Shown here: in pieces, positions 1,292 to 63,979 of the stretch | How the letters are laid out: each line of letters starts with the position of its first letter | How positions within the stretch are numbered: position 1 is the stretch's first letter | Source: Terramyces sp. JEL0728 | Taxonomy: Eukaryota > Chytridiomycota > Chytridiomycetes > Rhizophydiales > Terramycetaceae | Reading direction: 5' to 3' | Assembly (NCBI GenBank): GCA_027603945.1 | Contig: JADIIU010000051.1 | Coordinates: 31,487 to 95,486, forward strand | DNA: 64,000 nt | Position numbers and translations under genes: made by a program | Notes under the pieces: model-generated | Database searches by the model: none | What the model saw: only the letters and a program-made list of their open reading frames with translations | What the model was told of the DNA's origin: nothing

Positions 1292-2974
1292 TTATTCGTC
1301 AGATTCAAAAATGTTTAGTTTTTGAATAATTTCCGAGACTTCATTATTTTCTTCTGGAGATATTTTGTCGTAAACTGGAGTGGATTCATCGGAGAAATCC
1401 CCAATTGGTCCGCTGAAAGGATGTATCGTAGGTTTCAAAGGAAGACTACCTTTCCTTTGATAGTTTTCTTGGGTAGTATATTCCGGCAATACTTCGAGAG
1501 AATTTATTGTCGTGTGTGTGCTTGCCGTATGCACGGAGGATCTACTTTCGTTAAGAGTTCGAGTAGACGTTGAAACGCTGGATATGCCACTGTTGGATTC
1601 TTTTCTTTCACTAAACTTTTCAAAAGTTTTACTGAGTCGTGAAGATTTCCTTCGGATGGATACAATCTCAGTTGCAAAGTCAAACTTTTCATCAATCGGT
1701 GTTTTGGGAACTTTGTCCGGGATTTCAACCCCAAGTCGAGCATTATCGAACGGAAACTTGGTATGCGGTGCGCTGAGACTTGATACTGACCGAGACAAGG
1801 GGCTCCTTGGAATATTTTCGCCTGACGTTTTCCTTGGTTTGGCGGAAGGTTTGGAACTGGCCATTTCCACACTGGACTCAAAGTCTGTTTGGAAGTTGAT
1901 TGACGAAGGAGATCTAGGTTCTGGACTGCCTGTAGGGCTTTTTGCCGTTTTTTCTGTTAGTATTTTGAATAGCGTTTTTGGTCTTTTCCCCTTGTCCGGC
2001 TTTTGAGCTACTGGGGAGACTGCTGGAGATAGTGCCATATTTCCAAATGGAGAGCTTACATTGATATCAAAGGTAGAGAACGAGTCCAATGACTGCTCTA
2101 TGGAATCAAGCAATTGATTGGTTGCTTCCGACAGTGACGTGGACCGCTCTGATTGAGCAGGGAAAACACTAGTAGGCGGATTCAACTCGACATTATATTC
2201 TGCGCCAGAATATATTGAGCTTGTTCCTGTCGAGATGGGGGGTATGCTGTTATCTAGGGGGTAATAATTGCTACCTGGCACTTCTGTCCACATTGAAGTG
2301 TCTGTCCAACCTGGAGATGCGGAAAACCGTTCAATATTTGGGTCAGCAATAGCCAAGTTGGGAAAGGTTTGAGACAAAGGGCTTTTCCCTATTAGTTTTC
2401 TGGAATCCGAGAAATTTATCATATCTGGACTAAATTCCCCGCCGGGACTTGAGTTTGTAGCCGCTGATGGAGTAGAATTGACCAAGTCTGGTGTGAGATC
2501 AGATTTTTTCAGAGAGTTTCTTTTGGTTTTGCTTGTTTTCCGTGTTCGTTTTTTGACAGATCCATCGTTACTTGGTAAAGAAGCGCTGCTACTAACGTTG
2601 CTAGCATTAGAGTTGGAATGCGAGTGGGGTATAATATCTAGATGTGGAAAAGTAGCTGGTGTTGTCGGGTTACTCTTTGGCAGGATATTCATACTATTTG
2701 GGATCATCGCTCGCTCTTTTTGCCGCTGTTCCAGGTATAGCGCTAGTTCTCTATCGTATCTTGCTTTATCCGCTCGTGCCTGTAAAACGTACGGTTTCTT
2801 TTCTAACGGTGACAGCGCCTTCCAAAGTTCTGATATTTTTTTCGATCCTTGCATTCCATGGATCTTTCGCATTTCTTTATTGAATAATAAATATTCGTTG
2901 CAAGGTTTGGTGGGACACGTTAACCGCTGCTGTGTATAGTTGTTGCTTATCCCGGATATTTTAATTATGTTAAT
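1292..2974 (-). CDS. HMG-box protein 1 (MATA_HMG-type), first exon not found
   Basis: Likely sequence-specific nuclear HMG-box factor. The reading frame is open from 2974 to the stop at 1292. The box starts TKPCNEYLLFNKEMRK and continues through ISELWKALSPLEKKPYV to about residue 90. A long Ser/Thr/Pro-rich tail of about 440 residues follows, ending NIFESDE. An internal ATG at 2872 would remove helix 1 of the box, so the true start must be upstream, probably in a small exon I could not place. A short lysine-Ile-Ser block before the box (IKISG) recurs in both neighbouring HMG genes. It is one of three tandem paralogues. Confidence 0.8.
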   Translation of the reverse strand: MNIIKISGISNNYTQQRLTCPTKPCNEYLLFNKEMRKIHGMQGSKKISELWKALSPLEKKPYVLQARADKARYDRELALYLEQRQKERAMIPNSMNILPKSNPTTPATFPHLDIIPHSHSNSNASNVSSSASLPSNDGSVKKRTRKTSKTKRNSLKKSDLTPDLVNSTPSAATNSSPGGEFSPDMINFSDSRKLIGKSPLSQTFPNLAIADPNIERFSASPGWTDTSMWTEVPGSNYYPLDNSIPPISTGTSSIYSGAEYNVELNPPTSVFPAQSERSTSLSEATNQLLDSIEQSLDSFSTFDINVSSPFGNMALSPAVSPVAQKPDKGKRPKTLFKILTEKTAKSPTGSPEPRSPSSINFQTDFESSVEMASSKPSAKPRKTSGENIPRSPLSRSVSSLSAPHTKFPFDNARLGVEIPDKVPKTPIDEKFDFATEIVSIRRKSSRLSKTFEKFSERKESNSGISSVSTSTRTLNESRSSVHTASTHTTINSLEVLPEYTTQENYQRKGSLPLKPTIHPFSGPIGDFSDESTPVYDKISPEENNEVSEIIQKLNIFESDE

Positions 2975-3072
2975 TTAATTTCTCTTAATTCATTCCCATT
3001 GTCCATACCCCACGTAAACAAAAGTTTGCAAACTCATTGAATTCTTTTACTATATTTCTACTATAAAAATGT

Positions 3073-4543
3073 TTATTCGTCTCCTTCTTGAAAGCTATTA
3101 TTTATGGGAGTGAAATCTACTTCGGGGATATGGTCGTAAAAAGAGTTTCGCACCGGTGACGCTTCTTCTCTGACAGTTTCCTGAGATGGAATCCTGATTC
3201 CCACTGGTTTGGACATTCCCTCGTTGGAATTGGCAACAGCTAGGATTTAATACTATAATACGTATATTTTCCGCAGGAGGGACGTCAGTTCTAACATCTT
3301 CGTAAATCGGATATTCTGAAGTGACTAGAGTTAAATTGGGTTACAGGATTTCTTTAGTCGTCTTTGGGGCTTTAATGTCATCAAGTTCTGGCTAGAAGTC
3401 GACGTTGCATTCGGCTAATTAGTAAAAAAATACCATTAGTGATCTGACACCTCTCACACTAGAAGTGCGCCGAAGTTGAAATTGATCCATGCCTATATTA
3501 GAAGTTGCCGGGGAAACACCACCTGTTTTGCCGCCAATATTGTGAACGTTGTGTACACTTGAAAATCCATATTCCGCAATAGAATTCTGCCTTGTAGTAG
3601 TCACTGATGAATCGATAGAGTTTTTTGAAAGGGACAAAGACGCCATTGGAGATAGGGGACTGAAGAAATCTTCGTTTGATACATTAGACGACACATGTGG
3701 CATACTGCCCATTATTTTTGGGGAATAATAGTCTTGCTTGGGGGAATAATAGTCTTGCTTGGGGGAATAATAGTCTTGCTTGGGGGAATTGCTACCAGAA
3801 TGGGTAGTTGATTGAACATGCGGAAGGGCAGCTGTATTAATTCTTGGGGATATGTAGGGCTGTCGAGGCGAATTACTTCCAGAGTGCGGAACTATATAAG
3901 GAGAATTGTGTCCAGATAATTTTGGAGAGTTGTAGCCAGAATACTTTGACGACGGGTAACTTGGATTTGGTTCTCTTTCCTCAATACTGTCATCTTCAAA
4001 GTCCGAAGACGATCGATGTACAAATTTCCATTTATTTATCACTGCGGACATACTGTATCTATCTTGTTGGTGCGGCTTTATTAGGTATTGGTTTTTGTCT
4101 GTTTCAAATACATATTTCACATGAAGATCTGGATGGGAGGTATTTTGAATGGCTGGATTAGTATTTGTATTTGGCTCTGGTATCACTGATTTTTGCAGCC
4201 TTGGCGCCAATAATGGAAGTTTTTCAATAAAAGTGACAGGTCGCGCATTTTGCCGCCTGATTTTCTCCAGGTATCTTTTGTACTCTTCCATATCCTTCTT
4301 ATATTTCAATCGCTCTTGTTTTGCCATTATAACGTACGGCTTCTTTTCTTCAAATGCCATCCCCTTCCAAATCTCTGCCATTTTCTGCGAGTTGTTTGTC
4401 CCAAAATTCCTCCTGTTCTCCCGGTTAAATATCATATATTCGTTGAGCGGTCTCACCGGACATGATACTTTTTTCGGGAGAATAGGACTTTTGGAACTGC
4501 TTGTTAATTCGTTTGATGAAATTTTGTGTATTGAAAATAGGAA
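3073..4543 (-). CDS. HMG-box protein 2 (tandem paralogue), first exon not found
   Basis: Second HMG-box paralogue. The box reads VRPLNEYMIFNRENRR, then MAEIWKGMAFEEKKPYV and a basic helix. The tail is Ser/Asn/Pro-rich with a threefold SPKQDYY repeat. Three introns near the 3' end are 3415-3433 (19 nt), 3325-3344 (20 nt) and 3240-3261 (22 nt). Joining them gives a C-terminus ending FQEGDE and a stop at 3073. The frame is open back to 4543, where TTGACAAATAG directly precedes it and looks like an intron acceptor. No matching donor plus ATG was found, so the first exon is missing from the model. The block KISSNEL before the box matches its neighbours. Confidence 0.78.
3720..3785 (-). repeat. Three 21-bp direct repeats inside HMG-box gene 2
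   Basis: Three near-identical 21-bp units encode SPKQDYY repeated in tandem. Each unit keeps the reading frame. The copies differ at most by one G in the G-run, so the expansion looks recent. Confidence 0.9.
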
Positions 4544-4631
4544 CTATTTGTCAACAATGTAAATGTTTCCCCCGCTACTGGTCTGGATTCGGAAACTTGA
4601 GCATATAAATAAACATTTATTGGTTCGGTAT

Positions 4632-5701
4632 TTAGATATCACGATCTGGCTCATAGGTTTCTTCCATTGGATATGCGGACATTTCGTTCCCGAATGTTGC
4701 GATCGACGTGAAATCAGTGGACAATGGCAGAGACATAGTTGCAGTAGACTCCATCTCCCTATTTCGAGCATCTAACGTCAATATTATGGTACTGTCGTAA
4801 GGTTTCATAAATTCTATAGAGTTTGCAGATGGTGGCATTTCATCAATTTCATTGAGAGAATTAACTGCGATTAACATCAGTCGTACCTGGATTCAATCTT
4901 GACAGACTCTGTGGAGCACCGCGCCTGTGTTTAGAAGGGAATTTGGGCTAAATTAAGAACAAGTACCTGCGAAAAGGTTCTATTCAAATTTTGTGCAGGT
5001 GTATGAACATGAGTATGAGACAGCATTTCCCGAATTTGGTCGGCATCTAGATAAAGGGACTGGATACCAACATCCGGCAGCGATGCTAAAGTATTTACCG
5101 AGTCAGTAACATTGTGGGGATATTTCTCGGAAATGAGAGACCCTTGCGAGGAGGTTTTGGAGTCTTCAGAATTTGGATTGGATTGGCTGCTAGAATCTCC
5201 AAAGTCATCGACAGTTTTATGAACCCAAGTGAACCCAGACTTTTCTTTTACTGGTTTTTCTTTTTTAGCCAGCAAAGAGCCATGGGATTGTCTGTCGTAC
5301 TTTAGCGCGTTTGGATTATTATTCATTGATGGATCTAAATATACATGCGTGGTGTCACGTTTGCCTAATGGCTGAGGGGCGATTATTGGATATCCAAAAG
5401 TATTTGTTGACGACATGAGATTCCGCCTTTCCCGCTCCCTCTGCTGGTTATACGCTTCCAGATCCCTTTTATATTTGATCCTTTCTTCTTTAGCTTTCAG
5501 CACATACGGCATCTTTTCCTCCTGAGTCATGTTTTTCCATATGTCTGACATTTTTTTAGACCCATCCCCGCTGTAGTGCTTTCGCTGTTCTCTATTAAAG
5601 ATTAGGAATTCGTTAAGTGGCCGGGTTGGAGGTAGCAGCCGCTTTTGCGCTGTATCGGATAAGTTGTTTTCTGATATTTTGACAGGTTTTAGCGGGAAGG
5701 T
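4632..5701 (-). CDS. HMG-box protein 3 (tandem paralogue), first exon not found
   Basis: Third HMG-box paralogue. The box reads TRPLNEFLIFNREQRK, MSDIWKNMTQEEKMPYV and a lysine-rich helix; the tail is Ser/Asn-rich and ends YEPDRDI. Two introns are clear: 4948-4966 (19 nt, acceptor side TTAATTTAG) and 4865-4886 (22 nt, TTAATCGCAG). The frame is open to 5701 but contains no upstream ATG, so a 5' exon is missing. VKISENNL upstream of the box is the counterpart of the same block in HMG genes 1 and 2, which argues the extension is really translated in all three. Confidence 0.78.
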
Positions 5702-10574: not shown

Positions 10575-12001
10575 ATGTGTTTTATTTAGCACAAAATAAA
10601 AAAGATACACCCAGAATATTTCATAAACTTTATGGGGTTTTCCAGAGCTGCGATGGACGGTTGTTGCAATAGAGACACTAGTAGTTGTACTGACTCCGTT
10701 AGCTAATGGGTATACATCTCCAACAGTTGAATAATCGTTGGAAGGGCCGGTATCGTTACTATAATAGGATCCAGGTGCTGAGTGGATCACTGGATAATCG
10801 CTCGTTTTACAATCACACGATATTTCAAAAGAGATTTGTCCATATTCTCTGTCAAGGACGATATGAAAGGACATGAAAATAGGTAATCCCAGCGTGATAT
10901 ATCTGTTATCGGCACTTTGCACTGCGAATATGACTAAAATTAATGCATCTTACATTGGCCGTAGCCATTTGGAAGTATATAATTTTCAGGTCCAATAGTG
11001 ACGGTTAAATTGCGGGGATTTTCACCGCCAGTATTGATGGTAAATGAAATGTTTGGTAGGAGATGCCATTTAAAATCTGAATATGAGGTAGGGTATAGTT
11101 CATATAGCCAATTGTTGAAAGTGTTTGAAGCGACCAGCTGCGGAGGCAGACCATTAGAGTTCAATATTAAAGTTTGGAGATTGTACACGATATCTGCCGG
11201 CATGGCAATGTAGTTTGTGCATGAATCGAGGATTGACCAGAATTTCCCCCCTATTGCTTGTCTTGATTTACACTGAAAATTGCTTGGGAGCGGGTTAGTA
11301 ACACCTGCAATTGCTAATGATATGATATTTAGCGTGTAGTAGGTTAGTGAGGGTGAGTTTACTATTGCCGTCACATTGGAACATTGCTCTACTGGGGTTG
11401 TATTTCCGTAGTCGATCCAATAGCCTTTTGAATTGCAAGCGTGTATTGCTACTTTGTTTTGGGGTATAACTCCATCCTGAACTAGGGTATCAATAATATT
11501 ATTGGGGTTAAATGATTTGATATTCGCTAGTGCCGAGTAAGCGATGCCTAATAGACCGCCATAAGTCGTCCCATCCAAGAATACAGGGTTTGAGCTTTGG
11601 GATGTTATTACGCCTACCGGTACGCTTGTATACCCGTCGATATCATCAAGTGCAATCGCGAGCATAACTGCGCTTCCTGTCCATGAAGATCCATCCCCAT
11701 AAATGTTGAATATTCGTTCGGCACCAGAGGAAATATTCGCGTCTATTGTTGGACCATTGAAGTTATTTATCGTACTATCCGGCAATGCAGTATCACTTGA
11801 TCCTGTATCAATTTGAACCAAATATGACTGCCCATTGTAATTGATTTTCGTCAAGAGACACGTACTCAGACCCCCAGAAGTGTTTGATTTTTGTTTGTTT
11901 GAAAGTAGTTTATGATGAAAGTGGGTGGGAAGCTCTAAATGAGACTTGAGAGCTAAAATTGGTGTGAAATATTGTATAGAAAGAGCTAATAAAAGTAACA
12001 T
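10542..12001 (-). CDS. Pepsin-family (A1) aspartic protease 1
   Basis: 479 residues. A signal peptide (MLLLLALSIQYFTPILA) precedes the two-lobed fold. The first catalytic motif is QIDTGSSDTALP; the flap region is YGDGSSWTG. The second catalytic motif reads WSILDSCTN, with Cys where the family has Gly. One intron, 10934-10953 (20 nt), is removed before FAVQSADNRYITLGLP. The C-terminus is Ser/Thr-rich, then hydrophobic, suggesting a membrane or GPI-type anchor. The stop lies inside the last codons of the convergent gene. It is the first of four tandem paralogues. Confidence 0.88.
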
Positions 12002-12034
12002 TTGTATTAAAACGCGGGAAAGTTAAATTTTGAT

Positions 12035-13409
12035 TTACAAGAGCATTACCACCGAAATCACTGCCAGATAGAAAGCAACATCTACTCGTTAGTAGTTTAA
12101 AACCTCTGGCAGACGACTTTGCATTTGACTGGACATACGTTACTGGTGCCCCGGCTGTTGTGTTGCTGGTGATAATTTTAGGATACCCATTGGTAGAATA
12201 GGAGCAGGCGCATCCAATTGAAATTGTTAATTGTCCGGTTGTCAGGTCTGCCACCACATGGTATGCAGAAAAGAAAGGCAGCCCTAAAACCAAATAGTAG
12301 TCTGAACTAGAGGAAACAATGAAGCCGTCTAGGTTAAGAAGTCACTCACAATATCCAGTGCTATCCGCTTGGATATATTGTTGAGGGCCAAGGACAAACT
12401 GCACTATTGTTGGGAATAGTCCACCAGTGCTGACATTAAACGCCAAGGTTGGTAATTTTGCCCAATTAAATGAGCTGGAAGAAACCGACATGCGGATCTC
12501 CCCGTTCAGCCATTGACTCAGATATCCAGATGAGGTCAGTTGATATGGCAGACCCCCACTATTTGCCAAAGCTGTTTGCAAATTTGCAAGGACGCTTTGT
12601 GGTAAACCGATATCTGAATTGCAAGAATCCATAAAAGACCAATATCGGCCGCCATATTGATTTACTGTAGCGCTTTGGAAAGTTGATGGCAAGGCGCTCA
12701 ATGCTCCTCCAATATAAACTGCTCGTACATCTACAGTGTAGTAACTTTTGTATGGCATCGTAATTGTAGCCGATACATTTGAACAGGAGGTAAAAGGAGA
12801 CGTGTTTCCAATGTCAATATAAGCCTGAGAGATTTCTGAATATCTGCAGCCGTGAATTGCAACTTGTTTTTGAGCTATTTTGCCAGAGTTGTAGAATGCG
12901 TCCATGACTGTTTGCGGAGAAGACTTGATTGCAGCCAAAACTGGAAATGCTAGACCAATTAGTCCATTTGAAGATGCTCCATCTGCAAAAATTGGATTAG
13001 TGCTCTGTTGGGTCATCAGAGCAATGTTTGCGGTTGCACTTTGCGACGTACCGCTGATGCCAATTACCATGCTGGTTTGATACCCTGCCCAGTAGGAAGT
13101 GTCGGCGTAATGATCGCTTAGCGCTGTGGTTCCCATTGACGAAGAGTAAAAAATCGCTGGGCCGGTGTAGTTGTTTAAAATTGTAGCTGGGAGAACAGTA
13201 TCTGAGCTCCCCGTATCTACCTGCACATTGAATACCTTTCCTTGAGCAGTCAAACTTGCCAGATAACAAGTTTTAAATCCCCCGCTCATCGTTGACAGCT
13301 GTTTTGCGATCCCAGTAGTTACAATATCGACATTTGAATCTGGAATCGAGATTGAAATCCTATCTGATACAACAAAGTTAAATACACATAAATACAATAT
13401 ATTTTTCAT
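12035..13409 (-). CDS. Pepsin-family (A1) aspartic protease 2
   Basis: 443 residues with a short signal peptide. Catalytic motifs are QVDTGSSDTVLP and WSFMDSCNS; the flap reads HYADTSYWAG, changed from the usual YGDG. Introns are 12329-12349 (21 nt, donor GTGAGT) and 12082-12103 (22 nt, acceptor side CTAACGAGTAG). Removing the second gives a hydrophobic tail FYLAVISVVMLL and a stop at 12035, the pattern of a GPI-anchor signal or membrane tail. Without that splice the frame would run into the neighbouring gene's start. Confidence 0.88.
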
Positions 13410-13461
13410 TGGGAGGAAGAGGTAATATCGGAGAATTACAATCTGGAGTTACATCACCAGA

Positions 13462-14996
13462 TTAGAACAGTCCAATAGCATTTGCTAGCACTAAGAAAAA
13501 GAGATTTATGGAAGAGCTTGCAGAAGCACCTGATGTGTATGATGGGCTTGTTCCAGTGTCGCTGTTTGTCGAGCTTGGTGGCAATAGAGTCGCAGAGTAA
13601 TTTGCGACAGTTAAAGTAGGAATGCTAGAGGTTTGCTGTAACAAATAATTGCCTTGGTATGCAGCGGGTTGAGAAGTGGTCCTTGCCGTTTGTACAGCAT
13701 TTGATGTATAACTGGATGTAGTTGAAGTACTTGCAGGAGCTGCAGTGCCAGCTGGTGTGATTATTTTCGGGTAGCTAGAACTAGAAAATAAACATGAGCA
13801 GCCAAGAGAAATTTGAAGCTGCCCAAGATTTCTGTCTGCCATAACATAAAAGGCAGAAAAGAAGGGCAGCCCTAATACTGCATATTGATCTGATCCTGCA
13901 CTAACTACTATTCCCACTTAAATTAACTTTAATTACCGTAGCCGTTGGCATCAGCTTGAATATATTGCTGGGGACCAAGAACAAACACAACCAAAGACCG
14001 ATCGGCATCACCTGTACTAACCGTGATTGATATGTTTGGCAACAGGGACCACTGGAAAGAATTTAGAGATACAGCCATCCGAACTTGGCCTCCAAGCCAT
14101 TGATTGTAATAATATGAATTCGTAATTGAAGATGGAAGTCCTCCAGAGCTTCTAATTGCACTTTGCAAGTTCCCAACTACTGCGCTAGGGAGGTCGATTG
14201 CTGAATTGCAAGAGTCCAAGAATGACCAGTACCTCCCACCATACATATTATTTGTCGCGCTTTGAAACGCAGGAGGAAGTGTGACTGAAACCCCAGAGAT
14301 TTGAATACTTTGGACGTCTATGTTATAGAAAGATTTGAAAGGCATGCTAATCGTGGCAACAATATTCGAGCAGGATGTATATGGCAAAGTGTTGCCAATG
14401 TCCATCCATGCGTGTTGTATTTGGGAGTAAGGACACCCATATATTCCAACTTGGTTCTTGGTAATTGCATTTTCTGCAAGATACGCATCAATAATTGTGC
14501 GATTCCCCAAAGTAATTGCCGCGAGTATAGGAAATCCCAAACCAACCAACCCATTCGCATAAGAGCCATCAATGAAAATGCGACTAGTGCTTTGGGACGT
14601 CATCAATGCGATGGGAACTGATCCGGTGATGTTTGTTCCAGTAACAGTAACCGTATACTGTGTTTGATAACCGGCCCAACTTGAGCCATCACCATAGGTA
14701 TCAGAAACAGAAGAGGTTCCCATCGATGTAGATGAATAAGGTATAGCAGGACCGTTGTAGTTATTCAACCCCGTTGCTGGGAGTGCGGTATCTGAACTTC
14801 CAGTATCAACCTGCACCAAGAAGGTCTGGTTGTTTGCTGTCAAGCTGGCTAAAAAACAAGTTGTGAACCCACCTGCCAGTGAAGATGTTTGCTTGGCGAT
14901 CCCGTTCTCTACAATGACAGTAGAACTATCTGGCAAGGATATAGACACTCTACTCGATATTACTAGGGAAAGTAATGCAGTAAACAGGACTGGCAT
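13462..14996 (-). CDS. Pepsin-family (A1) aspartic protease 3
   Basis: 504 residues: signal peptide, QVDTGSSDTALP, flap TYGDGSSWAG, and second motif WSFLDSCNS. One intron, 13917-13936 (20 nt), lies at the position used by paralogues 1 and 2, just after the GY of the sequence before the C-terminal sheet. A long Ser/Thr-rich linker precedes a hydrophobic tail SSINLFFLVLANAIGLF, typical of GPI-anchored fungal yapsin-like enzymes. The substrate is unknown. Confidence 0.9.
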
Positions 14997-15030
14997 CTAC
15001 AAAACGGATTACGTAAGTAAATTGTAAAAA

Positions 15031-16378
15031 TTATATTGATAATAGAATCAAGAGTGCTGCGATATACGCCCTGTTTTCTAAATTAGTAATCCACTTACCA
15101 TTTTTCTTTGCAATTGATGTTGGGACGGTAGCGATACTATTTCCAACTACAATTTGAGGATATCCGTCTGTAGAATAAGAGCAAGAGCATCCTAAGGATA
15201 TGGTTGCTTGACCAAGAGAAAAATCGGCTACCAAATGGAATGCTGAAAAGAATGGCAGGCCAAATATGACAGAGTTATCATCTCCCGCGTTGTACACAAG
15301 CAACGAGTAATATCCATCTGGATCTGGCTGGATATACTGTTGCGGACCAAGAATAAAATGAACTAAAGTTGGATTGTTTCCCCCGGTGGAAATTGAGAAA
15401 TCCAGAGTTGGCAGTTTACTCCATTTAAAGTCTGAATCGGCAGCCTGGATGTTTATGTTTCCATTCAACCAATCGTTTATGTATTGGGGCGAAGAGATTA
15501 TTGCAGGGAGTCCATTGCTGTTTTTTAAAGCTGTTTCCAAAGCCGTGAATGCGTTTGTCGGGATAGAAATCAAGGAAGTGCATGAATCGAATATTGACCA
15601 GTCTCTTTCTCCCACATAGCTGCTAGTAGGCCCTTGGAAGGTTGTTGGAAGCTTCACAGCGGTACCACCGATTGAAATCCCGCGCACATCGACCGTATAG
15701 TAGCTTTCATATGGGAAATTAACTGTTACAGATGTACTGGAACAAGAACTATATGGCCTAGTATTACCAAAGTCTATAAACGCGCTACTTAATTCTGCGT
15801 ACGGACAACCATGAATTGCAATTTGGTTTTTGGAAACAGCGCCAGAAGAATACAATGCTTCCATTACTGTGAGAGGTGAATCACTGATCGAAGCCAAGCT
15901 TCCAAAACCTATTCCCATTAATCCATTCGAGGTTTGGCCGTCGGAAAAAATGGGGTCAGTTGACTGTTGATACATAATCAGAATAGGAGACGTTGCCTGT
16001 AGCACAGTGCCAGTAATTTGAATTGGCAGCCTTGCCTCGTATCCAATCCAGTAAGAATTATCGCCATACCTGCCCTCGTATGTCTTGGCATTATTTGCAG
16101 GCGTGAAGGAGAGGGTGGGGCCAGTACTGCATTAATAACTCTTACTAATTATTCAAATTGGCATTTGGGAGGATAGTGTCAGAAGATCCGGTATCCAGCA
16201 AGAGGGAAAAATTTTGATTTTGATAGGTTATATCTACAAGGAAGCAGTTTAAAAACCCACCCGTCAATGCTTCATATTGGCGTGTCACCTTATCTACTTG
16301 AATCGTATTCCTATTTGGCAGCTTCATTTTCGCTCTCCCTGCCAGGCACTGCGAGATGAAGAGGAGGATGAATTTCAT
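15031..16378 (-). CDS. Pepsin-family (A1) aspartic protease 4
   Basis: 435 residues, starting MKFILLFISQCLAGRA (signal peptide). Catalytic motifs are LLDTGSSDTILP and WSIFDSCTS. Introns differ from the other copies. One at 16127-16145 (19 nt) follows LNNY near the N-terminus and is absent from paralogues 1-3. The intron shared by those three is missing here. A second one at 15078-15098 (21 nt, a multiple of three without a stop) splits the tail close to the site of paralogue 2's last intron. The tail ends in AALLILLSI. Confidence 0.88.
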
Positions 16379-17305: not shown

Positions 17306-18855
17306 ATGAGTGCCAACACAGTGCTGCTGTCGACATGGCTAAACTCAAGCACATGTACAGGACCGCCATCATCAATGTATTTATTTTCAGAAGATAATCC
17401 GATTGCTCTTTACAATTTTACCATCCTTCAAAATCCGATCCCGTACTGTGGATCGTCTCCATCCGAAGTTCCAGCAGGATGCTGCATATCATCATTAGAT
17501 TTATCGCAGTCATCAAATATACCCTCCTACACAAACAGCTATATTGATGATACAATGGATGAATATCATTCTATGCCGCAAAGTGCGATGCAGAGCGAAT
17601 ACTGCAGAGTTGCAATGTATCAAAATTCCTCGTTGGAATACCAGGAAATGCTCTACCTCGGAAATGGGGTTTGTTACGACGGGAGACTGATCTGCGATTA
17701 CAAAGCAAGCCAATTGTCAATTTATAGTGAGGATGGCTGTCAGGGATATTCAGAAACGATTATAATTAACCAGGATGTTCAAGCATTTAATTCGACAATA
17801 CTAGGGAGTTTGAATATCTCGTCATATTTAGCAGTTAGTGCGATCGTACAGATATCGTGGATAACATACGAACCACAAAATTATCTGGTACCAAATTACC
17901 ACAGTGTACTGGATTATATGGCGCTATTTGATTTTATTGGTGCAGTGATAATATGCATCGTGTCCTGCGTTTACTATTCAAGATCATTCTACCTAAAAAG
18001 AAAAAAGCAGGATCTATTATTTGCTCTCAACCAGTTTTTCATTGGGATTAAAACCATATTTTCATTTGCCTACTTGAGTTTGATATTTGTCGATGACAAC
18101 ACCATCAATTACTTTACAATTACACGGGAAGCTTCGAATATACAGACGCTGTTTTCAAGTAATATCATCTTGACTTAGTTTACACAAGCCTTTTCCTTTT
18201 ATCTACTTTTTGGAATGGATATCTGCAGCCGTACCAGCTAAAGCTGATTTACGTGTTTTTTACGCTATTGCACTTTGGATTGTCATACTGGCTCATAGTC
18301 GGAATAGTATACAACATCACAACCAACGGTTACACCATATTTTATATCTACTACAACTTGAATCACTCCTTAAGTCAGGTGTGGAATTTCATTTACTTGC
18401 TGGTTGAAGCGCTGCCGTCAATGGTGGTTCTTTTCAAGGTGGTAAAAGTAGCACTTGCAAAGAAACTGGACACAGTGACTAATAACCTGAAGCGAATGGT
18501 TATTTTGTCTGTAGCACAATTAATTACAATTACAGCTTACTTGGTTTTAAGCTCTCTAACCGAAAATACTAATATCACTGGGTCGGACCGTAATTTTCTT
18601 GATGTCCAGTTTACCTATACAATAATATTTCCGCTCAACAGCATATTTAACATTATGTTGTTTGAATATCTCAAGGAAACCACTTCGTTGATGGTGAAGC
18701 GAAAGCCAACTCCGAAAGCAGATGGAAAAGCAGATGGAAAAGCAGATGGAAAAACAGATGGAAAAGCAGATGGGAATACAGATGGGAATACAAGGCTAAT
18801 CCAAAGCACACTGCCTTGTCCAGATTCTTTGGTTACTACAAAAGCTAGCCAATAA
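17306..18855 (+). CDS. Polytopic membrane protein with glycosylated ectodomain, seven-helix type
   Basis: 509 residues. About 210 N-terminal residues carry many Asn-X-Ser/Thr sites and Cys residues. About seven hydrophobic segments follow, beginning YMALFDFIGAVIICIVSCVYY and ending FTYTIIFPLNSIFNIMLF. This topology recalls seven-transmembrane receptors, but I cannot name a family. One intron, 18159-18178 (20 nt, branch TTGAC), splits the third helix and must be removed to keep the frame. The cytoplasmic tail has about seven KADG-type repeats. Confidence 0.75.
18715..18792 (+). repeat. 12-bp tandem repeat coding for KADG/NTDG
   Basis: Six to seven 12-bp units of the type aaagcagatgga sit in the tail of the seven-helix protein. 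Substitutions give KADG, KTDG and NTDG variants. The frame is kept. Confidence 0.9.
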
Positions 18856-61938: not shown

Positions 61939-62772
61939 ATGAATTTGATTCGAAAATTCTGTTTGGGTTCTGTCGGTGAGTAGGTGTTGACAGCTAGGTA
62001 TCTGATTCGGTAACTGGTAGGAATAGGTACTTGCTGCTAACTCCAAGGTACAAGCCTTTGCTTAATTTCTAGGTAATGGGATGGTAACCTTAGGTACAAT
62101 TCCTCTCATTATTAGGTACCAGAGACACTCATTATTAGGTACCAGAGACACTCATTGACAGGTACCGAATAGAATAATCCAAAGGTATCGCTTACAGCTC
62201 AAAGGTCTATGCTGATCAACAATTGGGCCAAATACAAACCACAATTGAGCCAAATACAAAAACTCTGATCCCAAACACAGTCCTTGAAAAGTTTCACTTG
62301 GTAGGATTAGGCGCAAGAAAAGTAACTTTTCTTAATATTACTGCGTATACAATTTCATTTTACTTGCCACTAAAGAGAGTTGCAAGAGATGAAATGTACG
62401 ATGAATGCTGTCTGCAAATTATTCCATACCGGTACTTGGTGCTAATATAGGTAATGGTGAATTTACCATAGGGATACAGATGGAGCTCATCTAAGAAACG
62501 GGTTCATCCGGCTCTTGAATAAGCAGCCAGAGAAACTAAGCGAAAACGAACTCCAGGAATTCAAGGGATTACTGGCAATCAAGCATTTCAAAAAACAATC
62601 GAAATTAGTGTTTTATAAAAACAAGAACGTATTGTCTGTGTATTACAACGATCAATATATTGGCAGTATGATAGGAAAATTGGGCGAACTGTTGATCAAA
62701 GGGTATTTTACGAATGTATCGCCTTCGTTTACCGAATCCGTTCATGTTGGATTGACCAGGTTTTTGAAATAA
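61939..62772 (+). CDS. Chalcone-isomerase-like fold protein with tandem-intron array
   Basis: 194 residues after splicing; probably mitochondrial (start MNLIRKFCLGSV, basic-hydrophobic, as in Aim18/Aim46-type proteins). Visible domain blocks: KFHLVGLGARKVTFLNITAY, TDGAHLRNGFIRLLNKQ and SVYYNDQYIGSMIG. The first intervening sequence, 61976-62184 (209 nt), is a chain of nine intron-sized units. The second, 62432-62471 (40 nt), is two introns in tandem. Splicing them out gives G|GIAYSSKVY and PYR|DTDGAH, and an exact multiple of three codons. The first exon call depends on the array being one intervening region. Confidence 0.72.
61976..62184 (+). other. Array of nine contiguous GT...AG intron-like units
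   Basis: Units, each starting GT and ending AG, abut exactly: 61976-61997 (22), 61998-62026 (29), 62027-62047 (21), 62048-62072 (25), 62073-62093 (21), 62094-62115 (22), 62116-62138 (23), 62139-62161 (23) and 62162-62184 (23). Several carry branch-like TTGAC, CTAAC or TTAAT near the 3' end. Every junction is AG|GT. Confidence 0.65.
62105..62161 (+). repeat. 23-bp direct tandem repeat inside the intron array
   Basis: Two adjacent 23-bp units (62116-62138 and 62139-62161) share gtaccagagacactcatt and differ only in the last bases before AG. A partial third copy (ctcattattag) precedes them at 62105-62115. Copies meet at AG|GT. Confidence 0.9.
62432..62471 (+). other. Two back-to-back introns (19 + 21 nt) with no exon between
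   Basis: gtacttggtgctaatatag (62432-62450) is followed at once by a second unit, 62451-62471, that starts gtaatgg and ends accatag. Only removal of all 40 nt restores the frame and the conserved RDTDGAHLRNGF; leaving the second unit gives an immediate TAA. Confidence 0.8.
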
Positions 62773-62917
62773 TAAATTCAACTGTACTCCTGTGAGCTTT
62801 CTTTCGAATTATCTACAGACCTAGAATGAATTGCCAGATTAATTGTTTGCATTTACCATTTACAAGGGTTTCAGCAGATCTTCAAAATACGCGGTATCAT
62901 TTGCCAAAACTTACCAA

Positions 62918-63979
62918 ATGAAAAAAAAGTCAAAACTGGAACACCTGGAAATCGAGTATGAAGACCTGATCTGCAAGTTGAAAACCAAAGAATGGGAAAT
63001 GCGGAAACTGCAGGAACTTGTCGAGCAAACAAGAGCTCAATTCGAATCAAAGATCTGCAAGCAAGAGGAACACATAGCTTATTTGGAGAACCATCTTGCT
63101 CTTGGCGAGAATCAGCGGCTAGCAAAGAAACAGAAAGACAAAGATCTGGAATTTGTTGGAGACAAGGAGGAAATTAAACACAAGAGCAAGCAGCTCGAAT
63201 GGAAGCACAAGGACAGGGATACAGACACTGTGCCACCGTTTATTGATCCAAAAGGGAGACTGCCAGAGCATTGCTGTCAGCGTAAAGAGTCCAGCGCTAA
63301 TACCAACAATCCAAAGATATCCATTACCCAACCCACGCCAGAAGCAGCTGTGTCCGATCCAACAAACACAAACAGGAAACGACTCGAGTCTATGCACGAT
63401 GCTGCAACAGTATTTGCTCTGACACCTGAATCAAATGGCAATCAAAATCACGTTCAAAGCACTGCAAAAGAAAAGGTTGCTCCTCCAAAAGAAAGATCGA
63501 AAGCCAGTGCATTCCAGATTGATCCTAATACAGATGCAAGGCTGTTAAGCGACCATATAAACCAATTTCTAAAAGACTACGCTGCTAATAACACCAAAGC
63601 TGCCAAAGATACCGCCAAAGATACCGCCAAAGATACAGAACCGATTACACCAATTTATACCACGCCAAATACCCCTTTGCTAAAGAATATCCCTGTTGAT
63701 AACCTAGATTACCAGCTCATTCCTAAAGCCAAACCACAAGACTTGCACGACCAAACCGAATGGGATCGAATGACAATTATGGAACATAATTTCAAAAACG
63801 AAAACAATCTTGGATTGAATCTAACAGACCAAATTTATTTTGATGCAACACCCGAGCATTTAGAATATCAAATCTCTATTTTCAAAAGCCAAGATGTAGT
63901 TGTTCCATCCTTAGTTGCTCTCTTCAAGTGTATCGTGAAACTTCAAATTTCAAAGTTGCGAAAGCTGTTGAATTGTTAA
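62918..63979 (+). CDS. Coiled-coil protein, unknown, possibly continuing past the right edge
   Basis: 353 residues if it ends at 63979. The N-terminal 90 residues are coiled coil (LEHLEIEYEDLICKLKTK), then a low-complexity basic middle, a TAKD repeat and a C-terminal region DLHDQTEWDRMTIMEHNF. The reported end (KLRKLLNC) looks unnatural. Removing 26 nt from 63931 would instead give FKFAKAVELLIYPFSIG running off the window, but that intron would be longer than the others here. The start could also lie upstream of 62918. Confidence 0.5.
   Translation: MKKKSKLEHLEIEYEDLICKLKTKEWEMRKLQELVEQTRAQFESKICKQEEHIAYLENHLALGENQRLAKKQKDKDLEFVGDKEEIKHKSKQLEWKHKDRDTDTVPPFIDPKGRLPEHCCQRKESSANTNNPKISITQPTPEAAVSDPTNTNRKRLESMHDAATVFALTPESNGNQNHVQSTAKEKVAPPKERSKASAFQIDPNTDARLLSDHINQFLKDYAANNTKAAKDTAKDTAKDTEPITPIYTTPNTPLLKNIPVDNLDYQLIPKAKPQDLHDQTEWDRMTIMEHNFKNENNLGLNLTDQIYFDATPEHLEYQISIFKSQDVVVPSLVALFKCIVKLQISKLRKLLNC
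63602..63637 (+). repeat. 12-bp tandem repeat coding for AKDT
   Basis: Three copies of gccaaagatacc in frame within the coiled-coil gene at the right edge. Confidence 0.9.

Follow-up and report, generated by a model that had tools for sequence, protein, structure and literature searches.

Candidate arrays of end-to-end spliceosomal mini-introns in the chytrid Terramyces sp. JEL0728

What occupies the 209 nt between the first exon and the first domain exon of an isomerase gene in Terramyces sp. JEL0728 (Chytridiomycota, Rhizophydiales, Terramycetaceae; 15.0-Mb assembly, 231 contigs)? The gene lies in a stretch of 64,000 nt (here called the window), in which an earlier note had described positions 61976 to 62184 as nine intron-sized units that abut with AG|GT at every border. 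The nine units were found at these positions, with lengths of 22, 29, 21, 25, 21, 22, 23, 23, and 23 nt (209 nt), and AG|GT was present at all unit borders. The excess of AGGT that the note claimed was also borne out: 10 AGGT occur in 61976-62190, nine at unit ends and one within unit 1 (61982), against a mean of 2.0 and a maximum of 7 in 2,000 dinucleotide-preserving shuffles; on both strands of the window, the mean is 0.56 per 215 nt. Judging from the sequence evidence given below, we consider it probable that at 61976-62184 (array A) a single intron position is occupied by a row of whole spliceosomal mini-introns, which abut so that the exons between them have zero length.

The gene was modeled on the plus strand. 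Exon 1 (61939 to 61975) comprises 37 nt, 12 codons plus 1 nt (MNLIRKFCLGSV-G), and appears presequence-like. Exon 2 (62185 to 62431; G-IAYSSKVYADQ...IIPY-CG) matches Pfam Chalcone_2, plus Chalcone_3 below its cutoff, and exon 3 (62472 to 62772, stop codon included) reads RDTDGAHLRNGF...VGLTRFLK*. Exons 2 and 3 are separated by a second array, array B, with a 19-nt unit at 62432 to 62450 (GTACTTGGTGCTAATATAG, score 11.9) and a 21-nt unit at 62451 to 62471 (GTAATGGTGAATTTACCATAG, score 9.0). When exon 1 was joined to 62185, exactly 209 nt were removed and the product read MNLIRKFCLGSVG-IAYSSKVYADQ..., with the frame open through the isomerase domain; removal of both array A and array B (62432-62471) gave a 194-residue protein. 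This protein matched Pfam Chalcone_2 (E 2.2e-19). The match to an AIM18 chain in PDB (8ew8) was weak (E 5.9e-5), with two AIM18 stretches that are weak taken singly. The junction left by array B, IIPYR^DTDGAHL, aligned with ITPVRNTDFKHL of the AIM18 chain and lies within Chalcone_2 (86-174), and retention of one unit or both truncated the protein. Without splicing, the isomerase frame stops after 14 codons, and the first in-frame methionine past exon 1 is well within the domain (RDEMYDE). This model was built by hand and frame checked, because our gene finder did not recover array A, even at a low start cost, and placed in exon 3 an intron (62740-62759) that we judged to be spurious.

Within its length limits, a search with the isomerase protein returned no annotated protein and a single relative, P0001 (112 residues), with 84% identity over 41% of the query. 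P0001 reads IIPYR-YSMIKK-GYGWSAYEEW, and in the +1 frame 10 of the 12 positions after YSMIKK can encode DTDGAHLRNGFI. Because of this +1-frame match, the gene for P0001, as read from its protein letters, probably carries only one intron, of 19 nt, at the position of the 19 + 21 nt found here. The residues TNQG just before the start of homology hint that the P0001 gene may have an intron unit at the array A site as well.

The units of array A (all on the plus strand) were scored individually as introns. Unit 1 (61976 to 61997; GTGAGTAGGTGTTGACAGCTAG, 22 nt) scored 7.2, at the 7.1 percentile of 350 solitary introns. Scores of 8.4, 8.0, and 8.7 were obtained for unit 3 (62027 to 62047; GTACTTGCTGCTAACTCCAAG, 21 nt, branch point CTAAC), unit 4 (62048 to 62072; 25 nt, branch point TTAAT), and unit 5 (62073 to 62093; 21 nt). 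Unit 6 (62094 to 62115; 22 nt, weak branch point CTCAT) scored 5.1, followed by unit 7 (62116 to 62138; 23 nt), which scored 4.8 and is a near-duplicate of unit 8 (a tandem repeat), unit 8 itself (62139 to 62161; 23 nt, 4.0), and unit 9 (62162 to 62184; 23 nt, 3.0), the weakest after unit 2. The best branch-point candidates of units 6 to 9 were CTCAT or ATAAT, not YTAAY, and five of the nine units (2 and 6 to 9) fell at or below the 0.3 percentile of the solitary introns. Taken together, the nine units had a summed intron score of 48.9, against a mean of -2.5 (standard deviation, 10; maximum, 35.3) in 5,000 shuffles of the unit interiors. Only 8 of the 512 possible subsets of retained units, including the empty subset, kept the full-length isomerase frame.

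Unit 2 (61998 to 62026) stood as a span, but as a 29-nt intron it did not stand, scoring -0.1. A better parse is a 23-nt intron, GTATCTGATTCGGTAACTGGTAG (61998-62020), which scored 7.0, followed by the 6-nt remainder GAATAG (62021-62026). If GAATAG were retained as a microexon, array A would be split into 2 + 7 units; judging from its length and letters, the frame would be kept and Gly-Ile would be added. This variant is compatible with the end-to-end reading. We regard it as tentative and rather unlikely despite the higher score of the 23-nt unit, since a 6-nt exon would be exceptional where the shortest nonzero internal exon in our models is 21 nt.

The introns of this genome were sampled with our own gene finder (genes scoring at least 15) in 264 kb, namely the 64-kb window and 200 kb of contig C1. 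The intron size of 19 to 23 nt reported earlier agrees with 347 of the 351 modeled introns. This size is rigid: 350 introns are 19 to 26 nt long (79 of 19 nt, 155 of 20 nt, 80 of 21 nt, 26 of 22 nt, 7 of 23 nt, and 3 of 24 to 26 nt), and the remaining one has 180 nt. In the 64-kb window, 33 sites fit the pattern GTA-N7-YTAAY-N2 or N3-AG, compared with 1 site for its reverse. With a model retrained on the 350 introns, the best branch point was YTAAY or YTGAY in 272, and a distance of 5 or 6 nt after the branch A carried a weight of 0.88. A frame scan with loose criteria gave little beyond a 20-nt peak; motif-restricted scans and the gene finder, a small one, took its place. When its prior was relaxed, the gene finder proposed 17 introns of 41 to 387 nt. 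Twelve of these extend beyond the default models or lie entirely outside them (7 of the 12 between two models); the 5 that lie inside one model speak against the array reading. In these 264 kb, chosen regardless of arrays, 2 of 254 internal exons had zero length, and both belonged to two-unit arrays. Introns of Paramecium and Nyctotherus are about 25 nt long. Among the matches listed in a search of the titles and abstract beginnings of open-access literature, no report of intron size in Terramyces or Boothiomyces was found. Rfam returned no family at its gathering threshold in the 64-kb window.

Array A is not unique but is one of about 30 chains in the genome. The pattern AGGTA-N16..20-AGGTA-N16..20-AGGTA, which corresponds to two whole units of 21 to 25 nt between three borders, had 48 matches, which merge into 28 places when neighbors on one strand are combined; its reverse had 17 matches. 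A version for units of 18 to 20 nt added 7 matches at 4 places (control, 3). Among these 32 places, that on contig C104 resembles a coding repeat, that on C75 is doubtful, and those on C37 and C56 belong to two copies of the same gene. Genome-wide, an intron unit preceded by AG was followed at once by GTA in 111 cases (control, 8), by GTA 1 nt later in 20 (control, 4), by GTA 3 nt later in 30 (control, 2), and by ATA, CTA, or TTA in 95 together (control, 16). The base composition of exon starts predicts about 30 cases of GTA directly after a unit, compared with the 111 observed.

The sequence was read at 17 of the 28 places of the AGGTA pattern. Each of them parses into three or more units, and at 16 removal of the array leaves a downstream frame of at least 58 codons open; the exception, on C94 (the second array of L031), has about 10 codons open past the array and speaks against the array reading. 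One gene model (L024) is weak, and three (L007, L023, and L025) have no Pfam family match. With array B and neighboring second arrays included and the C56 copy left out, the parsed set comprises 19 arrays with 89 units, which span 40 to 209 nt (units only). Unit counts depend on the parsing parameters (6 or 7 in the SIKE family gene, 9 or 8 in the GPHR-family gene), a further point against the array reading. The units start with GTA (76), GTT (8), GTG (2), or GCA (3), have lengths of 19 to 24 nt in 87 of 89 cases, and carry a loosely defined xTxAY motif close to the 3' end in 84 of 89. GC-AG units were seen within the arrays of L006, L026, and L031. Array units show the features of spliceosomal introns, GT(A)...YTRAY...AG, 19 to 23 nt, and a frame restored on removal, with units 2 and 6 to 9 of array A showing them weakly. 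Units in arrays appear to be longer than solitary introns: those outside the matched pairs were at least 21 nt long in 31 of 42 cases, against 116 of 350 solitary introns; the AGGTA pattern itself admits only 21 to 25 nt. Arrays tended to lie early in genes, with 12 of 16 hand-entered arrays within the first 100 codons versus a fraction of 0.23 of 349 solitary introns, a tendency that is biased because 3 of the 19 arrays were not entered and the loci reach only 1.5 kb upstream. Chance or a plain tandem repeat was considered as a source of the chains and ruled out, since splice signals, spacing, and AG|GT borders are kept across units whose sequences otherwise vary, although some adjacent units are closely alike.

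The parsed arrays were examined for proteins that continue across the removed sequence. Eight of the 19 lie inside conserved domains that continue over the junction. In the Mgm101p gene, removal of four units (86 nt) gives FGPGGWAL^VPRGPH, and residues 2 to 127 fall on profile positions 45 to 170, that is, 126 residues on 126 positions (E 1.3e-57). Seven units (154 nt) interrupt the Vps34 gene within PI3K_C2 (47-172), where WNE^WITFP corresponds to WNEWLKLP of PDB chain 9rx6. In a cytoplasmic dynein heavy chain gene, three units (66 nt) leave FHATV^GFIADTG, which aligns with FHATVSFDTDTG and is gapless there. Three further arrays lie in an ING gene (six units, one of them GC-AG; Pfam 11-119 spans codon 33, and the PDB alignments across the array are weak, at 10.4 and 2.6 bits), a TPR protein gene (five units at codon 20, inside TPR_CcmH_CycH 13-114), and a Mannosyl_trans3 gene (three units at codon 141, inside 60-174). 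In the SIKE family gene, with six units (130 nt), the orthologs from Boothiomyces macroporosus and Boothiomyces sp. JEL0866 have zero residues between QKEN(N/T) and VLNHLL. The eighth is array B, within Chalcone_2. For the class, these data support the earlier suggestion of end-to-end introns with zero-length exons, with protein continuity across the eight chains. No domain spans the other 11 arrays: those of L007, L008, L011, L018, L023, L024, L025, and L027, the first of L009, the second of L031, and array A. For array A itself, reading it as an intron array is supported by the open frame, the summed score, and its membership of the class.

Two of the arrays that no domain spans can be read against other evidence. 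With its four-unit array removed, the L008 model (contig C28) is identical to NCBI protein HDV01_003934 at 264 of 264 residues. In L027, the GPHR-family gene, which had no match in PDB, a long frame opens once nine units (198 nt) are taken out, against 35 codons when eight are. Arrays seem to mislead public annotation. The NCBI model of the Terramyces SIKE protein (HDV01_000946, P0005) has TYTRYEPQ at the junction, matching the letters of units 4 and 5; since these eight array residues were kept, the annotation program cut the remainder in other pieces, against the orthologs. The Boothiomyces protein HDV06_002797 (P0003) begins past the array position. The arrays would also bear on gene prediction in these fungi, given this Terramyces protein and the lack of an annotated isomerase relative within the length limits of the search.

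Each array could instead be one long intron that is removed in one step by joining its outermost splice sites (the 5' site of the first unit and the 3' site of the last), with the internal sites being unused leftovers of tandem duplication. One-step removal predicts the identical mRNA and a conserved protein, and the residues retained in the NCBI SIKE model are in its favor. So are the scores of the internal units, which are about 7.5 to 7.6, against 9.95 for solitary introns, as if constraint on internal units were weaker, and units 6 to 9 of array A are poor. Against one long intron, 350 of 351 modeled introns in 264 kb are shorter than 30 nt, and the array units keep GT(A), AG, their length (87 of 89), and xTxAY (84 of 89). 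Moreover, the 47 distinct internal units had a mean score of 7.6, versus 0.2 for shuffled sequence, although most come from a parse that requires a score of 3. Because most units are competent as introns and almost no intron in the sample exceeds 26 nt, recognition over about 20 nt is likely and removal of 209 nt in one step is less likely. We therefore consider a single long intron improbable.

For the array A locus, a further alternative is that the region serves chiefly as promoter of the DBF4-like gene, with the isomerase mRNA starting inside or after the array, e.g., at the ATG at 62081, and only the last units serving as introns. The divergent DBF4-like neighbor mentioned in the earlier note does encode a zf-DBF domain, and its start codon (minus strand, 61923) lies 15 nt from that of the isomerase (plus strand, 61939). 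With the start codons this close, promoter sequence probably overlaps array A or the coding first exons. In addition, no ATG in 61940-62185 except that at 62081, within unit 5, frames into exon 2, and it does so with units 6 to 9 removed (MVTLGIAYSSKVY). Yet units 1 and 3 to 5 are better introns than units 6 to 9, and similar arrays lie deep in other genes, e.g., after codon 218 of the dynein model. This reading would also still require a four-unit array, and we hold it to be very improbable. The end-to-end array of complete introns is the reading that we follow from here.

Unit number and unit similarity bear on how such arrays may arise. The dynein locus is present in two copies, on C37 and C56, with 38 mismatches in 2,985 gap-free columns. 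The first dynein array has five units in one copy and four in the other, and the difference is one 21-nt unit. This unit is the only gap 3' of the start codon in the aligned overlap; upstream gaps are 1 to 20 nt. C37 and C56 may be haplotypes of one diploid; the alternative is a recent duplication. At a threshold of at least 80% likeness, 13 of 65 adjacent unit pairs were alike, compared with 5 of 127 nonadjacent pairs within one array and 1 of 400 random pairs from different arrays. This last value excludes dispersed introner elements, which were considered as a source. Alike neighbors and a variable copy number, as expected of tandem duplication, are found in C37/C56, in C128, and in the 13 adjacent pairs. 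On C128, five perfect copies of a 20-nt unit stand in a row, probably the youngest array.

Pattern matches on C128 (21740-23313) mark several arrays in about 1.6 kb on both strands. Near-identical or repeated matches were seen for C37/C56, C18 (70839 and 132613), C30/C33, C21, and C164/C223 versus positions 62819-62900 of the window. They suggest that both haplotypes or recent duplicates are present in the assembly, and such copies are a useful source of array-length polymorphism.

We propose the following mechanism. The spliceosome would recognize introns across about 20 nt, by a 5' GTA and mostly YTAAY or YTGAY, with 5 to 6 nt after the branch A. The units would most likely be excised one at a time. 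Each excision would rebuild an AG|GT border, so that the order of removal need not matter, and the exons would meet cleanly at the end. Since the border is common to both, neighboring units are probably not engaged simultaneously. Multiunit skips may happen at weak units. Arrays would arise and change in length through tandem duplication or deletion of whole units, and because each added unit can remove itself, growth of an array is probably close to neutral. The arrays likely represent a separate class of intervening sequence, with up to nine or more mini-introns at dozens of sites in one genome, unit-by-unit splicing without unit skipping, strict recognition over about 20 nt, whole-unit polymorphism within a strain, and intron multiplication caught in the act.

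The earlier statement that no array of this kind has been described was consistent with our search, in which none was found among the matches listed for titles and abstract beginnings of open-access literature. The closest systems share single features with the arrays. Recursive splicing at ratchet points in Drosophila (PMC8605326 and PMC5126111) also uses AG|GT that regenerates a donor and creates an apparent zero-length exon. Ratchet points lie mostly in long introns and require a cryptic exon that is later skipped (PMC8605326). In the arrays, the juxtaposed AG|GT is present, but in place of a long host intron there are 40 to 209 nt (units only), with steps of about 19 to 25 nt, up to nine in a row, and a branch point for each unit. 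Unlike ratchet points, the arrays are likely recognized across the intron. Stwintrons of fungi are also complex intervening sequences removed by consecutive splicing reactions, and small duplications have been proposed as their origin (PMC7138796). There, an internal intron interrupts a splicing element of an external intron, so that the two are nested and spliced from the inside out (PMC7138796). The array units, in contrast, stand side by side and none is interrupted; they abut, every unit starts with a GT or GC and ends with an AG of its own, and a branch-point-like motif is present in 84 of 89.

Two systems with tandem repeats or tandem duplication are also comparable. Tandem AGGT sites in human UBC can be used as 5' or 3' splice sites, but the repeat unit there is coding (ubiquitin) and is included in variable number (PMC10809524). 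The array unit instead looks like an intron, and conserved proteins are complete without it: 504 of the 512 isomerase subsets break the frame, and the SIKE orthologs lack the units, in these two genes. Tandem duplication is also a source of introns in the potato RdRp gene, where one new intron was reportedly gained (PMC4974935), whereas in the arrays existing mini-introns seem to multiply in place. Very small spliceosomal introns are shared with Stentor (PMC9505925), Paramecium, and Nyctotherus, which are ciliates and not fungi. The paper on Stentor, searched for "tandem," "consecutive," and "adjacent," contained no passage on contiguous introns (PMC9505925).

If the proposed reading is true, intron number can grow at one site with no cost to the coding sequence. 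The arrays would then be a natural system for the number of units, the order of their removal, and the rate of splicing failure at one site, and would test how small and crowded intron recognition can get. In the potato gene mentioned above, AGGT borders are reportedly involved in the gain.

Several features of the window are unrelated to the arrays. A tandem cluster of open reading frames with VQVDTGSSDT-like motifs lies on the minus strand at 10940-16005, and these we take to be aspartic proteases. Several neighboring open reading frames on the minus strand at 1292-5551 presumably encode proteins resembling HMG-box proteins. Short tandem repeats within open reading frames were seen at 3720-3789 (21 nt), 18715-18785 (12 nt), and 63602-63636 (12 nt).
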